A stretch of DNA of 32,677 nucleotides from a virus. Both the position numbers and the translations under genes were made by a program. Below the pieces are notes generated by a model. It did not search any database. It was not told the origin of the DNA and was given only the letters and a program-made list of their open reading frames with translations. Each line of letters begins with the position of its first letter. The first letter of the stretch is position 1. Below, piece after piece: positions 703-7,139 of the stretch. The stretch spans positions 1 to 32,677 of IMG/VR virus record IMGVR_UViG_3300018083_000090. One strand, written 5' to 3'.

Positions 703-993
703 ATGGCTTCAAAGAAAGATAGGATGCGCATCACATACGATGTGTGCTCTCCTGACGCACAATATCCAGGCTTCTCTGAAAGACGAACCTTCAAGTCAAG
801 GTTCCAAGCGCTCTACCATGCCAAGATCATTAGAAGGTACGGTCACACAGCTTTCTTCGTAGCTGTCGGCTGTACCGTAGCCTTGCTTGGCTCAATTCTC
901 CTCAACCCAATGCGTGCCATGGGTGAACCGCCACTATCATGGTACGCAAGCATGGGAGTCAATAGAGGAAATCCAGCTATCTTGGGATTATAG
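703..993 (+). CDS. Hypothetical single-span membrane protein, 96 aa
   Basis: The ATG at 703 has GAGGAG nine bases upstream and begins 30 bp after the tRNA CCA. The first 45 residues are basic and polar (MASKKDRMRITYDVC, then RTFKSRFQALYHAKIIRRYG). A hydrophobic helix follows at about 49-68 (TAFFVAVGCTVALLGSILL), then a short polar tail. This predicts one membrane span with a cytoplasmic basic N-terminus. No family is recognised. It is the last gene before the first gene-free structured region. Confidence 0.7.
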   Translation: MASKKDRMRITYDVCSPDAQYPGFSERRTFKSRFQALYHAKIIRRYGHTAFFVAVGCTVALLGSILLNPMRAMGEPPLSWYASMGVNRGNPAILGL

Positions 994-1331
994 CTACGCT
1001 GGTTGCTACTGCGTAGCATGAACAGAATAGGGTGTAGCCAAAGAGGGGTAACGACCTACCCGAGCTAAGACGGGAATGATAGCGCCAATCCTTGCTGGCT
1101 ATCGTGGCTAGTCGCGGAACGGCCCTCTCTTAGCCCCTATATATTTTACCACCCTGGTAACGCGGGGTGCACTACGGACTCCTGTTGAACCGGGGGAATG
1201 TTGGTCATGCCTGGAGTTGGTTAGTGGGTATCATCGTTTGACGGTGGTAGATTCAAAACTAACCTCCCATGGCGCCGTTGGCTACGGTGTCTAAACGTTC
1301 TTGAGCTAGCCACTCAGGTCCAATAATACCG
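994..1331 (+). ncRNA. Structured non-coding region with kissing-loop pair, upstream of tRNA-Leu
   Basis: There is no credible gene in these 338 bases, but the plus strand is dense in complementary segments. Near the start are a GCTACGC/GCGTAGC pair (993-999/1011-1017) and the smaller hairpin TGCTAC-TGC-GTAGCA (1004-1018). A closed domain follows: ATAGGG 1027-1032 with CCCTAT 1135-1140, AGAGGG 1042-1047 with CCCTCT 1123-1128, hairpin CCCG 1059-1062/CGGG 1071-1074 and hairpin GATAGC 1078-1083/GCTATC 1098-1103. Next come CACCC/GGGTG (1150-1169), then GGTTAGT 1219-1225 with ACTAACC 1258-1264 enclosing a nine-pair hairpin (1229-1249). Two hairpins (1271-1291, 1300-1318) have complementary loops. 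Many pairs use G-U, which favours RNA over DNA structure. The 5' part (TGTAGCCAAA) resembles a tRNA-Gln 5' arm, but no T arm follows. The RNA class is unknown. Confidence 0.6.
1271..1318 (+). other. Two hairpins with complementary loops (kissing loop)
   Basis: Hairpin one is GGCGCCG 1271-1277 with CGGTGTC 1285-1291 and loop TTGGCTA. Hairpin two is CTTGAG 1300-1305 with CTCAGG 1313-1318 and loop CTAGCCA. TGGCTA 1279-1284 and TAGCCA 1307-1312 are perfectly complementary over six bases, and both loops have seven bases, the usual size for kissing loops. The interaction could be within one molecule or between copies. Confidence 0.6.
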
Positions 1332-2211: not shown

Positions 2212-2631
2212 ATGCGACTAGAAACCTACGCTATCTTCATGACCTCCGTCTCGGTCATGCTGCTGATTGCTGCTGCTTCCATTGGCATCTTTGCCTGGAG
2301 GTTGGAGAAAGAGAACGATGAATGGCGACATTCTCTCGCTGTTGCCAATGGCATCATCGGGCGCTGGCGTAACTACTTCACCATTCACAAAGGCGTTATG
2401 GAGAAGCACTATGCTTATCTCCAACATGCCGGATTGCAAGAGGCTTTCAATCTCTGGGCTAAGGAGAAAATGGAGCCTGATCCTGAACTAGTACACAAAA
2501 TCTCCCAGGCTTTGGGGGAGAGGGACGAGGTCATTGTGGAAGAAGCCACAGTGGAGATCGTACCTGACGATAAGGTAGAGATCATTGCTCTGCCTAAATT
2601 ACTACCCGTGCCTATGCGGGTGGATAGTTAG
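2212..2631 (+). CDS. Hypothetical membrane-anchored protein, 139 aa
   Basis: The ATG at 2212 follows AGGAGG at ideal spacing. Residues about 6-29 (YAIFMTSVSVMLLIAAASIGIFAW) are a strong N-terminal membrane span or uncleaved signal anchor. They are followed by a charged helical region (RLEKENDEWRHSLAVANGII) and an acidic tail rich in valine and glutamate. An N-terminal span followed by a helical soluble domain resembles i-spanins in topology, but no partner gene or motif supports that function here, and this region is remote from the lysis candidates at the right end. Family not recognised. Confidence 0.7.
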   Translation: MRLETYAIFMTSVSVMLLIAAASIGIFAWRLEKENDEWRHSLAVANGIIGRWRNYFTIHKGVMEKHYAYLQHAGLQEAFNLWAKEKMEPDPELVHKISQALGERDEVIVEEATVEIVPDDKVEIIALPKLLPVPMRVDS

Positions 2632-2672
2632 TGCGTGGCGTATGTACTGAACTACCACAGTGAGGTTGCGTT

Positions 2673-2969
2673 ATGAGTGCAAAGCTGCACACCAAATCGT
2701 TGGAAGTCGGGACCCTAAAGCCCGGCCACAAGATCGAGCTTGCTAAGGTTTACGTCCTTGTCAAGGCGATCCACCGTGCCGAGAAGGAAGGTCCTACTAT
2801 CGACGACGATGTCTTGCTACTTGAACTGGTTGGCGACTGCGGCCCGTTCAAGGGTAGGAAGACCCGGATCACCGTTTCGTCCAAGGCAAAGATGACGGTT
2901 GTTCTTCACAACCCTCTTCGCAAGCTCTGGGACAAGCTCCGGGCATTAGTCACTTGGCGCGTTGCCTAG
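2673..2969 (+). CDS. Hypothetical protein, 98 aa
   Basis: The ATG at 2673 has GTGAGGTT upstream. The protein (MSAKLHTKSLEVGTLKPGHK...) is basic and mixes beta-type segments (KVYVLVKAIHRAE, VLLLELVGDCGPFKG, RKTRITVSSKAKMTVVL) with a helical basic end. The middle could form a small beta barrel, but no family is recognised. It is the last gene before the 1.17-kb structured region. Confidence 0.65.
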   Translation: MSAKLHTKSLEVGTLKPGHKIELAKVYVLVKAIHRAEKEGPTIDDDVLLLELVGDCGPFKGRKTRITVSSKAKMTVVLHNPLRKLWDKLRALVTWRVA

Positions 2970-3049
2970 TGATAGATGCTACGCAGTAGCACCTGCGGAG
3001 CTATACGCGTTAGTTGCGTACAGGGTGTTACGGTTAGTCAACCACTAAG

Positions 3050-3108
3050 TCTCCTCCCAGTGTGGGTTCGAGTCCCACTATATGGCGCAATTGGTAGACG
3101 CAAGGAGA
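3050..3108 (+). ncRNA. tRNA-like elbow in permuted order inside the large RNA
   Basis: A perfect T arm (GTGGG 3062-3066, loop TTCGAGT, CCCAC 3074-3078) comes before a leucine-type D arm (GCG 3085-3087, loop with TTGG, CGC 3099-3101). They are enclosed by TCTCC 3050-3054 pairing with GGAGA 3104-3108, which occupy the 3' and 5' strands of an anticodon stem. The 3' half of a tRNA therefore precedes the 5' half. Only six bases (3079-3084) separate the arms, so no acceptor stem can form. It is a three-way junction able to make the D-loop/T-loop contact, not a chargeable tRNA. Confidence 0.65.
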
Positions 3109-3220
3109 TAAGGCCGTGTTATCAGGGGCTGCTCTGGACAATGGCTTCTTAAGGTGCTGATTAGACGTTAAACATTCTCAGAGTAACGTCCTATCCAACT
3201 CGATGTCACCTTTCCGGTGT

Positions 3221-3235
3221 CTGGATCGATACCAG
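3221..3235 (+). other. Hairpin with self-complementary loop
   Basis: CTGG 3221-3224 pairs with CCAG 3232-3235 around loop ATCGATA. ATCGAT is its own reverse complement, so two RNA copies could pair loop to loop, as in retroviral dimer-initiation hairpins. The stem is only four pairs. Confidence 0.45.
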
Positions 3236-3927
3236 CAGGGCCTAGCGGCCTTGGACTACGTAGGCACGTAGCTAGAGATATATAGGACATACGCTGGTCC
3301 GTTGTGGAGCTGCAAGACTTTAGGTGTGTGGGTTCCAAACCACTACCCATTGGTAGCCATAGGGGTCCTGGAGACTACCTGTCTAGTAGATCCTCCTTGT
3401 TCGACCTAGGCTTCTGGATGAGACTAAGACTGTGATTAAGTGTTGCGGATGGTAGTTAAGTTACCATGCTTAGGTTCATTAACCTTAGCGAGTGTCCCCG
3501 TAATCACGATCCCCTATATCAGTTGATAGCCCTCCTTCGTATGGAGGTTACTATCTCACCGGGTAATCCCGTGATATGGTATGGATAAGATGCACAGCAC
3601 CTACCTCGTCTGGGACTGTTCAAGCGGTTTTTCTACACAACAAAAGGCCGAAGAAGACTGACCATATCCTCCCATATGCTAGACGTGTCGCTCACCAAGC
3701 GACTCCCAGTGGGATAGCCAGCCGTTGGAATCTCTGAAAGGGTTCCTTCTATTCGAGGTTGGATACGTCCACTTGTGCATAGCTTAGTGCCATTGTTGCC
3801 CCAGATCAGGGTGTTTCTTGGAACGGGTAGGATGGAACGGCAAACGACGTGCAAATCGTCGAATGGTCCCGTGCATGGTGCGATAAACCGCAGGTCTAAG
3901 TGGTCCATTCCAGCTCAGCCCAGCATG

Positions 3928-4038
3928 TGGGGGAGGGGGCGCAGTCAAATGCCTCCCCCAAACTAAGCTCACGGGTGCAAGTAAGTGGCTAAGTTTGTTA
4001 GTTGTATGCAGCGTAGCAGAGTCCCGTGTGTTTAGTTT
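3928..4038 (+). other. 3' domain of the large RNA: G/C-rich hairpin and long closing helix
   Basis: TGGGGGAGG 3928-3936 pairs with CCTCCCCCA 3952-3960. Directly after it, AAACTAA 3960-3966 pairs with TTAGTTT 4032-4038 and CACGGG 3970-3975 pairs with CCCGTG 4023-4028, separated by a symmetric three-base internal loop. A CTAA/TTAG hairpin lies inside. GCGTAGCA 4011-4018 is complementary to TGCTACGC 2977-2984 at the 5' end of the region, so an end-to-end contact is possible. Confidence 0.55.
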
Positions 4039-4094
4039 GTCATGCTTAAAGAGTTGTTCTGCGGCAATACTTAAGGAATTTCCCACCAAAATCC

Positions 4095-4114
4095 CGAAGC
4101 CGCGTAAGGCTTCG
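4095..4114 (+). other. Hairpin before the 4139 gene
   Basis: CGAAGCC 4095-4101 pairs perfectly with GGCTTCG 4108-4114 around GCGTAA. It is followed by C/T-mixed sequence without a T run, so it is not a standard terminator. It may mark the 3' end or a processing site of the large RNA. AAGGGCGAG, the ribosome site of the next gene, begins shortly after. Confidence 0.45.
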
Positions 4115-4138
4115 CCTTCCCACCACCAAGGGCGAGAT

Positions 4139-4405
4139 ATGGACGATCAACAGATCAAGGTAGAGAAACGCTACCGTATTTACTATTGGTCGGGTCGCTT
4201 CCAGCAATTTGCTAACCGCCTTGGCATGGAGGGCTCCCCACCACGTGTAAGATGGTCCCCTAGGGCCAATGAGTATCCTGATCACTTTTCTAAGAAAGAA
4301 ATGGAGGATATCCTTCGTTTCTATTCAGATCAGTATCAGATTTTGAAGGTAGAGACTACATATGTAGCAGTAGGAGTGAGTGACGATGAAGGAAGTGATG
4401 GATGA
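4139..4405 (+). CDS. Hypothetical protein, 88 aa
   Basis: The ATG at 4139 has AAGGGCGAG upstream; a longer in-frame extension to 3995 runs into the structured RNA and is not credible. The protein (MDDQQIKVEKRYRIYYWSG...) is aromatic and basic in its first half and ends in an acidic tail (SDDEGSDG). No family or metal motif is recognised. Its stop overlaps the cyclotransferase-like gene, so it may be the first gene of the amide-modification block. Confidence 0.6.
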   Translation: MDDQQIKVEKRYRIYYWSGRFQQFANRLGMEGSPPRVRWSPRANEYPDHFSKKEMEDILRFYSDQYQILKVETTYVAVGVSDDEGSDG

Positions 4406-4900: not shown

Positions 4901-5809
4901 ATGCGTATCGATATCAAAGGTACTCTGGATGTTGTTGAAGTATTCGCCGATCATTCACTCGACAAGAAACCTAAGACAGGCACACATACTACAGTAGCTG
5001 TTATGTCTGATAAGACACACATTGCTTATCAGTGTCACGGCTGTCAGGCCTGTCTAGGTGAGATGTTTAGTGGTGTGTATTACACTACTACAGGATATAC
5101 GACAAGGAAACCTACTGCTATCTACTCAAGTCTCTGGAAGAGACCTGATCAGACCTACGAGGATGCGCTAGCCTACTGGAAGTTCATGTTGAACCCTAGG
5201 TGGAGTCCATATCGTAGTGTCTTGAAGGATTCGGAGATCATCTATCATGAAGAGAAGCCTATTGCATATGTACTGCGGGATATGGATACGTCTCCGCAGA
5301 CAGTCGCAAACCTGTGCTTCGCAATGCGGATGCCCTATGCGCAAGATGGATACTTGCGTATGTTTACAGCACTACGAGAGGCAGGTTTCACTAATGCGGA
5401 GTCGTCTTTCGTCACAGCTAATGCGAGACTAACGCCTAAAGGTTCTATTGGATTCCCTTACATCGGGGACTATCCTTTCGATACCTGCTGGGCAAATATG
5501 TCTTGGAGCGCTTGGAAAGAGGGTAAGCCAAAGACTAATGGTAAACTTATCTCAGAAGGTAATGGGGAGTATCGCCCCTGCAATGTTATCTGGAGTGTCG
5601 CGAAGGTTCCAGGTGCATCTGATAACTATGGAGTCAGTGGACGTAAGCCTACTATCATTCAGAAGCTACTGAGTGGTAAGTTTGAATACAAGGGCAGCTT
5701 CAAGAAGAACTTCAATAGCATCAGCAGCACTGTGCCTCTTGGTGCTGTGGAGTTCGACAAGGCTGTCACAATCCTCCGGGATAACAAAGCAGATTGGCAG
5801 GTAGGCTAA
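4901..5809 (+). CDS. Unknown protein of the amide-modification operon, 302 aa
   Basis: The ATG at 4901 follows TAGGAGT. The protein has an N-terminal beta-rich part with a cysteine cluster (CHGCQAC at about 45-51), an aromatic-rich middle (YEDALAYWKFMLNPRWSPYR) and a conserved-looking segment (GFPYIGDYPFDTCW). The CxxCxxC may bind metal or be structural. No transmembrane segment is visible. I do not recognise the family. Its place between the cyclotransferase-like and amidotransferase genes, with a start-stop overlap to the next gene, suggests a dedicated function in the pathway, such as substrate supply or carrier, which is inference. Confidence 0.75.
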   Translation: MRIDIKGTLDVVEVFADHSLDKKPKTGTHTTVAVMSDKTHIAYQCHGCQACLGEMFSGVYYTTTGYTTRKPTAIYSSLWKRPDQTYEDALAYWKFMLNPRWSPYRSVLKDSEIIYHEEKPIAYVLRDMDTSPQTVANLCFAMRMPYAQDGYLRMFTALREAGFTNAESSFVTANARLTPKGSIGFPYIGDYPFDTCWANMSWSAWKEGKPKTNGKLISEGNGEYRPCNVIWSVAKVPGASDNYGVSGRKPTIIQKLLSGKFEYKGSFKKNFNSISSTVPLGAVEFDKAVTILRDNKADWQVG

Positions 5810-5925
5810 TGGCAACAGGACCTAAGCCCAAACGAGAGACTAAGAAGAAAGCTAAGGGCTATCGCAAGCATGTCAGGGAGAAGGCTTGGCGCGAGCGCAA
5901 GCGTCTGGAAAGGTTGGGCAGATAA
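5809..5925 (+). CDS. Basic 38-aa peptide
   Basis: The start overlaps the previous stop and the stop overlaps the amidotransferase start (TAATG on both sides). The peptide (MATGPKPKRETKKKAKGYRK, ending ERKRLERLGR) is more than 40 percent Lys and Arg and likely helical. It could bind nucleic acid, or be the protein substrate or leader of the surrounding ligases. Neither can be shown from sequence. Confidence 0.6.
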   Translation: MATGPKPKRETKKKAKGYRKHVREKAWRERKRLERLGR

Positions 5926-7139
5926 TGTGTGGACTCTTTGGCGTTTACGCTGGCTCAACTCTCTCTAAGATGGAGATTGATGCCTTTGTGGAGCTAGGCT
6001 TTGTTAGTGGTACACGTGGCCTGGACTCCACAGGTGTGCTCAAGTGCCATCGTAAAGGCCACAACAAGTTCAGCATTACAAGTGAGAAAGATGTAGGTAA
6101 TCCTATGTCTTTCTTGTCTCGCTATACTACTCAATCCTTCATGCGAGATAAGAGCCCATTGATGCTAATGGGTCATGCTCGATGGGCTACAATTGGTGAT
6201 GTCAATAGAGGCAATGCTCAGCCTATCCATGAAGGCAATATCCTCGGCTGTCACAATGGTACTATCGATTACTATTCTCCCAAGAACAAGGAAGACCTCA
6301 AACATACAACAGATAGCCGCAATCTGTTCAAGACTATCAACAAGGAAGGTATTGTTAAAGCACTAAGCAAGACTAGTGTAGGTGCTTATGCATTGACCTT
6401 TGTAGATACTCATCAACGCACTCTCAACTTCATCCGCAACAGTGAGAGAGAACTCTGGCTAGTCAAGAGCAAGGCTCAGAGCCTGTTCTGGGCTAGTGAG
6501 AGGCGTATCCTAGAGTTCATGATGGAAGAGCTAGGTGGTAAGGATCGCTATGATCTCCCACATCTCATCTCAAAGAATTCTCTTCACTCCGTTATCTTAG
6601 GTGATGGTATTGGAGATATCAAAATTCAATACCTCGACAGTGATATCACTAAGGAGTACAACAAGACCTTCTATCCAAGCGCTAGTAAGCCTTGGGAAAA
6701 GAATGGTACCTCTGTTCCTCTTCTCACGTCACAGGCTCCGCCTATCTCAGGTCTCTTCTGTACAGCTTGCTGCTGGAACTTCAACCAATGCAAGTGTGCT
6801 AAAGGTGTGAAGAAAAGCTACATTAGGCCTGATCCTAAGCTGATCTCTGCTAATCTTATGTACTACACACCAGAGAATGCTAAGACAGTGGTGCCACATG
6901 ATGTGGAGAAGTACATCGGCTATGAGAGAAGGAACCTAGCACTATCTGTTGCTAAGGCACTCCTTGATGAGGGTTGCTCTGGGTGTAACAACAAGTTCGG
7001 TATCGAGAACAAGGTCTATTGGTTCTCCGAGAAGGAGTATGTCTGTAGAGACTGCAAGGAGACCAATGAGGTCATACAAGCTGACCTTAAGAAGGTCAAG
7101 ATCTATGGTAGTGGTGTATATGTGGAGCGAGTGAACTAA
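5925..7139 (+). CDS. Class II (Ntn-type) glutamine amidotransferase
   Basis: The start is set at 5925 because it yields MCGLFGVY: Cys2 becomes the N-terminal nucleophile after Met removal, as the mechanism requires; an upstream in-frame extension would bury it. Further family motifs are RGLDSTG (31-37), GHARWAT (83-89) and HNGT (110-113), the glutamine-binding set also found in GlmS, PurF and AsnB. The enzyme hydrolyses glutamine to supply ammonia. The 404-aa protein has no synthetase or isomerase domain; its C-terminal half instead has cysteine knuckles (CTACCWNFNQCKC, and a CxxC pair with a later CRDC) likely to bind zinc. Ammonia is therefore probably passed to a partner, most likely an amidoligase encoded next to it. 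The stop overlaps the next start. Confidence 0.9.
   Translation: MCGLFGVYAGSTLSKMEIDAFVELGFVSGTRGLDSTGVLKCHRKGHNKFSITSEKDVGNPMSFLSRYTTQSFMRDKSPLMLMGHARWATIGDVNRGNAQPIHEGNILGCHNGTIDYYSPKNKEDLKHTTDSRNLFKTINKEGIVKALSKTSVGAYALTFVDTHQRTLNFIRNSERELWLVKSKAQSLFWASERRILEFMMEELGGKDRYDLPHLISKNSLHSVILGDGIGDIKIQYLDSDITKEYNKTFYPSASKPWEKNGTSVPLLTSQAPPISGLFCTACCWNFNQCKCAKGVKKSYIRPDPKLISANLMYYTPENAKTVVPHDVEKYIGYERRNLALSVAKALLDEGCSGCNNKFGIENKVYWFSEKEYVCRDCKETNEVIQADLKKVKIYGSGVYVERVN

Follow-up and report, generated by a model that had tools for sequence, protein, structure and literature searches.

Positions 2970 to 4138 of a 32,677-base virus record from a podovirus-like phage (hereafter the window, meaning the whole stretch of DNA analysed) are non-coding, and they contain a tRNA-like element at 3046-3112 (+), TAAGTCTCCTCCCAGTGTGGGTTCGAGTCCCACTATATGGCGCAATTGGTAGACGCAAGGAGATAAG, whose T-arm precedes its D-arm. 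We consider it reasonably likely that the stretch specifies a large structured phage non-coding RNA (ncRNA), which presents a permuted mimic of the tRNA elbow to a host factor that recognises elbows. Such an RNA would probably represent a new class among the large structured RNAs of phages, comparable in kind with GOLLD and ROOL and a member of neither. As predicted from sequence comparison, the permuted elbow of the window is backed both by an independent covariance model and by covariation.

A permuted tRNA-Leu elbow

The elbow proper spans 3049-3109 and is built of a closing helix, a T-arm, a four-nucleotide linker and a D-arm. The closing helix, of 7 bp, has as its 5' strand GTCTCCT (3049-3055, +), in place of the 3' strand of a tRNA anticodon stem, and as its 3' strand AGGAGAT (3103-3109, +). 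Enclosed by it are the T-arm (3062-3078, +; stem GTGGG/CCCAC, loop TTCGAGT), the linker TATA that replaces the acceptor stem (3079-3082, +), where a closed hairpin is found in the related loci L186, L187 and L201, and a tRNA-Leu-like D-arm, TGGCGCAATTGGTAGACGC (3083-3101, +; stem GCG/CGC, GG in the loop). The layout is that of a tRNA opened at its anticodon, sealed at its acceptor end and stripped of the acceptor stem, and the element folds as the permuted elbow when taken alone. Its T-arm is identical at 17 of 19 positions to that of the phage's own tRNA-Leu, though the D-arms differ. Neither ARAGORN nor the Rfam tRNA model makes a call at the elbow, their only calls being at 600-673 and 1332-1408, and both acceptor stem and anticodon loop are absent from the element. 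Because a closing helix occupies the site of the anticodon stem and four nucleotides stand for the acceptor stem, the element can be neither charged nor decoding, and it cannot be an ordinary tRNA. An earlier reading made from the letters of the window (the sequence-only reading) had noted an embedded tRNA-like part here; that part is genuine, though with its T-arm ahead of its D-arm.

Independent backing comes from a covariance model, R1, which was built from L186, L201 and L187 only, with the window excluded. Run over 31 sources (563 kb, both strands), R1 ranked the window (3046-3121) directly after its three training elements, in a full-length match of 31.0 bits (E 1.7e-4), the next match reaching 11.6 bits. 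In 1.22 Mb of control sequence the window was again the best match, and none of the about 70 related-phage loci with tRNA genes in that set scored at E<=10. The full-length match indicates a permuted Leu-type elbow shared between the window and L186, L187 and L201; blastn and nhmmer comparisons of the L186 RNA with the window gave no match beyond the elbow pattern.

Covariation was scored on an alignment of nine elements, comprising the window, L186, L187, L201 and five elements from other phages. Standard pairs fill 99.3% of its pair cells, and two-sided changes occur in 13 of the 20 pairs, including all seven pairs of the closing helix (7/7). The elbow covariation score is 0.471, against 0.158 when shuffled (0/500) and at most 0.107 with partners slid; as the structure guided the alignment and close relatives make up three of its rows, these figures are biased towards the structure, and what carries weight is the gap to the slid-partner controls. 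The covariation proposed as a check by the sequence-only reading thus came out strong for the elbow, window included, and for the whole RNA in two pairs of relatives (below), with the other helices of the window lying outside the comparison.

Large non-coding stretches in related phages

Non-coding stretches of 0.7-1.7 kb are found in related IMG/VR podoviruses. A primase-based scan brought in L186, L187 and L201, whose 1.6-kb stretches are ~75% identical and lie between SSB-like and exonuclease genes, together with L194 and L229, whose stretches of about 1.0 kb are 75-76% identical. For L186/L201, RNAalifold counted 40 compensatory pairs where 12 column shuffles gave 13-21, at an energy of -375 (best shuffle -301); for L194/L229 it counted 31 where column shuffles gave 5-14, at an energy of -224 (best shuffle -152). 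With more compensatory pairs and lower energies than in the column shuffles, the alignments identify the stretches of both pairs as structured RNAs. The elbow of L186, L187 and L201 has the closing helix CATCAGT/ACTGATG, the T-arm ACTGG..CCAGT, a hairpin at the place of the acceptor stem and the D-arm TGGCGCAA...GGCAGACGC; the hairpin reads CTCGA/TCGAG in L186 and CTCGG/CCGAG in L201, a compensatory change.

The nearest relatives by gene content with an intact region, L050, L077 and L168, were found by IMG/VR scans with neighbouring proteins, being relatives by shared genes. They carry about 1.07, 1.05 and 0.73 kb of non-coding sequence, respectively, just upstream of the same gene cluster as in the window. 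Each has GGTTCGAGACC followed by GCCTA and a D-loop-like sequence, all within a closing helix, and long perfect helices occur in L077 (18 bp, span 198) and L168 (13 bp, span 377). Outside the T-loop motif, the three stretches hardly align with one another or with the window. A group I intron lies within the DNA polymerase gene of L077 (17109-17468), the primase genes of L077 and L168 have interruptions of ~0.9 kb at the same helicase position, and the polymerase gene of L050 has one of ~0.36 kb; these interruptions are probably inteins or introns.

The closest relative, L174 (primase 87%), is a contig that starts 982 bp upstream of the primase, which places the RNA region outside it. L100 has the syntenic genes without the RNA, and repeats the hairpin GACGCGACAAGCGTCGC in many intergenic places (4980-6830); L153 has no more than about 290 nt, in which there are two T-arms. 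A relative search with a single protein, the glutamine amidotransferase, yielded no relatives. Several candidates were set aside: a match to the motif GGTTCGANACCNCTNGCCTA in L169 was due to chance, lying inside a helicase gene; a first permuted-elbow pattern run on IMG/VR picked up three phage contigs with short tRNA-like repeats that are not homologues; and the motif GGGTGCRA, present in the window, L050, L077 and the L186 and L194 groups, stands in differing structural contexts. Non-coding stretches with T-arms that are not tRNA genes also occur at L199:15442-16467, L228:18300-21200 and L177:2790-3160, and R1 matches none of those T-arms.

Coding status and genomic setting

The upstream open reading frame (ORF) occupies 2673-2969 and the ATG of the next gene stands at 4139, with no supportable gene between them. 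A codon-usage scan left 2970-3994 uncovered, and the remainder, up to the ATG at 4139, was covered solely by a GTG- or TTG-started extension of the next gene. The 14 open segments of at least 35 amino acids within 2970-4138 gave no significant tblastn match among about 250 loci (best E 0.13), and the same comparison revealed no conserved reading frame through the stretch. Codon usage and tblastn agree with the sequence-only reading, which had seen no supportable gene here and had proposed looking for a conserved frame. Based on the gene scans and on the Rfam and blastn comparisons given below, we presume that the stretch, on the plus strand, encodes the large RNA, whose own ends may differ from 2970 and 4138.

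That reading had also placed the stretch in a setting of tRNA genes and an HNH gene, which holds: tRNA-Ile lies at 600-673 and tRNA-Leu at 1332-1408, each called by ARAGORN and by the Rfam tRNA model, and the HNH gene at 110-520. The gene order from gamma-glutamyl cyclotransferase through primase/helicase is that of the Zobellviridae phage KZY1, namely cyclotransferase, unknown protein, glutamine amidotransferase, COOH.NH2 ligase, unknown protein, amidoligase, RimK-like ligase and primase/helicase.

Hairpins and predicted folds

The stretch contains 16 perfect Watson-Crick hairpins (stem of at least 5 bp, loop of 3-8 nt) where dinucleotide shuffles lead one to expect 5.9, with one of 60 shuffles reaching 16. 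Six of them have 7-nt loops against 0.9 expected, and five have stems of at least 6 bp against 1.5 expected (2 of 100 shuffles), so that the earlier count of more than a dozen perfect hairpins, many with seven-base loops, was right. Because as many as 12 hairpins occur in two coding controls of this genome, the excess, modest and real, is not decisive and on its own is weak evidence. The z-score of the global fold energy (-1.68 and -0.86 in two runs, with coding controls down to -4.95) was rejected as a marker, as it did not separate RNA from coding controls.

Single-sequence prediction suggests a domain at 3671-3931 (+), closed by a 10-bp helix (3671-3680/3922-3931, span 261) with a mean pair probability of 0.93, and a long hairpin at 3959-4039 (+), formed by 3959-3968/4030-4039 plus 3970-3975/4023-4028, with mean pair probabilities of 0.98-1.00. 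These helices of the body rest on such prediction because no alignable homologue was found. At the 5' end, a hairpin at 2976-3031 (+), in which 2986-2994 pairs with 3023-3031, is repeat-like in sequence: it recurs inverted at 989-1019 (90%) and, in similar form, at L174:6050-6089(-), and so may lie outside the RNA proper. The short repeat-like hairpin ATGCTACGCAGTAGCA... recurs in several intergenic sites of the phage lineage (window 989-1019(-) and 2976-3006(+); L174:6050-6089(-)).

A proposed large RNA displaying a tRNA-elbow mimic, and its alternatives

As the elbow is what is shared while the body changes, a scaffold with a tRNA mimic is the simplest reading. A large RNA of about 1.0-1.2 kb would be read on the plus strand together with the neighbouring genes, one of a set of 0.7-1.7-kb podovirus RNAs with fast-diverging bodies; the closing helix would link the elbow, near the 5' end of the RNA, to the body, and the RNA would serve as a scaffold displaying an elbow mimic that is incapable of being charged or of decoding. 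The elbow might then dock on a host factor that recognises tRNA elbows (for example RNase P, TruB, TrmA, a Dus enzyme, PNPase or a tRNA nuclease), and docking could recruit, occupy or divert that factor during infection, much as the Y RNA module acts with its partner. In Y RNAs, PNPase is an effector bound by the tRNA-like domain, and TruB and DusA modify that domain (PMC8394870), which has also been suggested to inhibit an anticodon nuclease competitively (PMC7790460). Transcription, a single RNA across the whole stretch, tRNA mimicry as its function and the identity of the partner are what we infer. More tentatively, the window may exemplify a superfamily of phage RNAs not described before, measuring 0.7-1.7 kb in these podoviruses and, in DUF7873-linked phages, a few hundred nt with a pair of modules; its members would carry one or two permuted elbows, be incapable of being charged or of decoding, and engage or disarm the elbow-recognising machinery of the host.

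Several points weigh against the elbow-displaying RNA. The region gave no match to a sigma-70-type promoter. The 31 bits scored under R1 are just 6 bits above tandem tRNA genes of bacteria, deliberately chosen controls that reached up to 25.3 bits. The RNA of the L186 group sits at a different genome place, by its SSB-like and exonuclease genes. In L050, L077 and L168, R1 has no match and the elbow is without a Leu-type D-arm, leaving gene order and a generic T-loop resemblance as their only link to the window. The comparison supports the elbow only, the ~1 kb body of the window being without an alignable homologue, and in the full-length minimum-energy fold the strands of the elbow pair with distant segments instead.

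Were the stretch a DNA-level feature and not an RNA, such as a replication origin or a packaging or transcription-control site rich in inverted repeats, it would likewise be non-coding, and hairpins of single-stranded DNA would covary too; yet no role in DNA is known for a T-arm/D-arm pair that has tRNA loop sequences, and a structured tract of 1.0-1.7 kb far exceeds the usual length of such sites, which makes this explanation hard to credit. A decayed tRNA cluster, in which dead halves of tRNA genes had become permuted by accident within a non-functional spacer, would fit the tRNA genes less than 2 kb away and the T-arm's match to the phage's own tRNA-Leu, though the D-arms do not follow. We regard it as very improbable, given that closing helix, T-arm and D-arm are all intact, that the same permuted layout recurs with compensatory changes in unrelated sequence contexts, that covariation extends over the whole RNA in relatives, and that a dead 1.2-kb spacer is unlikely where genes touch.

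Two further alternatives accept the RNA and differ on its role. A counter-defence decoy, whose elbow would bind tRNA-cleaving defence nucleases or sensors and, having no anticodon loop, stay uncut, would suit a phage that supplies its own tRNA-Ile and tRNA-Leu; we think it improbable, since anticodon nucleases often read the very loop that the element lacks and no partner among defence genes was identified. Self-assembly into an RNA cage or oligomer might instead be the main role, as for GOLLD and ROOL, with the elbow as one structural or folding module. Size, phage origin, nearby tRNA genes and high structure are all like those of GOLLD and ROOL (PMC12286853), and in L290 a GOLLD RNA lies about 2.2 kb from a permuted elbow. 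No relation to either class by sequence or covariance model was found, however, and the recurrence of the elbow in distant phages whose bodies differ suggests that it is more than filler, so that self-assembly as the main role appears unlikely, if the least so of the four. A cage of the GOLLD or ROOL kind is conceivable and would be compatible with a displayed elbow, and a large RNA presenting a permuted elbow mimic is the reading that we prefer.

Permuted tRNA-like elements elsewhere

L261, L288, L295 and L310 (IMG/VR) and L331 (bacterial metagenome-assembled genome JADMJV010000096) carry an RNA of another type, which measures a few hundred nt and contains permuted tRNA modules. Its modules retain the acceptor stem as a closed hairpin, often with CCA in the loop, and two of them stand in tandem in L261, L288, L310 and, by eye, L331. 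The RNA lies directly downstream of a DUF7873 gene in L288, L295 and L310, and of a 49%-identical relative of that gene in L261. None of L261, L288, L295 and L310 matches an Rfam family, and DUF7873 found no mention in the literature searched. A permuted Leu-type element at L330:5557-5647, on the Dactylosporangium vinaceum chromosome, scores 30.2 bits under R1 and receives no tRNA call. The phage contigs L003, L004 and L005 carry many tRNA-like repeats with a common acceptor stem (AGTCAGG/CCTGACT), Leu-type D- and T-arms, and highly varied middles that contain no recognisable anticodon, plus a conserved hairpin RNA of ~60 nt that ends in a T-arm.

Giant phage RNAs fall into very few known classes, and what GOLLD and ROOL do is an open question. 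A small conserved elbow would offer a handle on what giant RNAs bind, as it could be used as bait, mutated or swapped with the body untouched. The finding also suggests that permuted tRNA elbows, so far familiar from Y RNAs and two-piece tmRNA, recur as modules of phage RNAs and escape tRNA finders.

Comparison with known RNA classes

Giant structured phage RNAs are already known, GOLLD, ROOL and that of ICP1, the last as a transcript (PMC7567579); the present class is in no Rfam family tested. With all 4227 Rfam families, cmscan at gathering score picked up the two tRNA genes in the window and nothing else, and at E<=10 no family, GOLLD and ROOL included, matched 2900-4250; as a positive control, the same library finds GOLLD in L290 at 197 bits. 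Comparison by blastn with 50,697 phage and 72,556 plasmid records gave no relative for the region.

GOLLD is a large, elaborate ncRNA of phages and prophages, often near tRNA genes and of unknown function, and ROOL is large, ornate, phage-associated and found near tRNA islands (PMC12286853). The stretch shares with GOLLD (RF02032) its size class, phage origin and tRNA neighbours, and with ROOL the character of a large phage RNA near tRNAs, without a covariance-model match to either class in the window or in the related RNAs; nor is a permuted tRNA elbow among the features described for GOLLD (PMC12286853). In L290, the GOLLD RNA occupies 2554-3016, and ~2.2 kb upstream of it, by tRNA genes, lies a permuted elbow (339-409), after which come several hundred nt that contain long perfect inverted repeats. 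The sequence-only reading had left the choice between a divergent member of GOLLD or ROOL and a new class: as far as Rfam models can tell, the former has to be given up, and the latter stands to the extent that the best reading is a large structured phage RNA outside both, with the support for the window limited to the elbow. Vibrio phage ICP1 makes a ~0.8-kb ncRNA of unknown function that is its most abundant transcript (PMC7567579); both it and the present stretch fill about 1 kb of gene-free phage space. R1 has no match in the ICP1 stretch, which is also free of non-trivial T-arms.

In circularly permuted tRNA genes (algae, archaea) and in two-piece tmRNA, the 3' half is encoded ahead of the 5' half (PMC3978253). 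Processing gives those RNAs back an acceptor stem and, for tRNA, an anticodon, whereas the element of the window has neither, and ARAGORN finds no tmRNA in the window. A permuted-tRNA review does not mention phages, and the literature searched, with most subscription-journal papers outside the search, held nothing relevant on permuted tRNA together with phage ncRNA.

There is also a likeness in form to YrlA, a bacterial Y RNA of 90-150 nt whose tRNA-like module mimics the acceptor arm too and is joined to the RNA body by a basal stem from the module's two ends (PMC8394870). The sole match of the YrlA model (RF02553) in the window's record is at 3038-3125, full length, with 13.7 bits (E 0.118) against a gathering score of 69, and the model did not match the elbows of the L186 group or other relatives, so we discarded it for them. 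No gene for Rsr (Ro60) was found among the window proteins Pfam-scanned, only part of the proteins having been scanned and the genome being a fragment. The likeness to YrlA is one of topology and not of membership. In the window the mimic of the acceptor arm is absent, with the TATA linker in its stead, whereas L186, L187 and L201 have a covarying hairpin there. With the arm order of YrlA taken from the topology described for it, the element of the window appears to share the topology of the Y RNA module, being likewise a tRNA-like module set on a basal stem formed by its own two ends.
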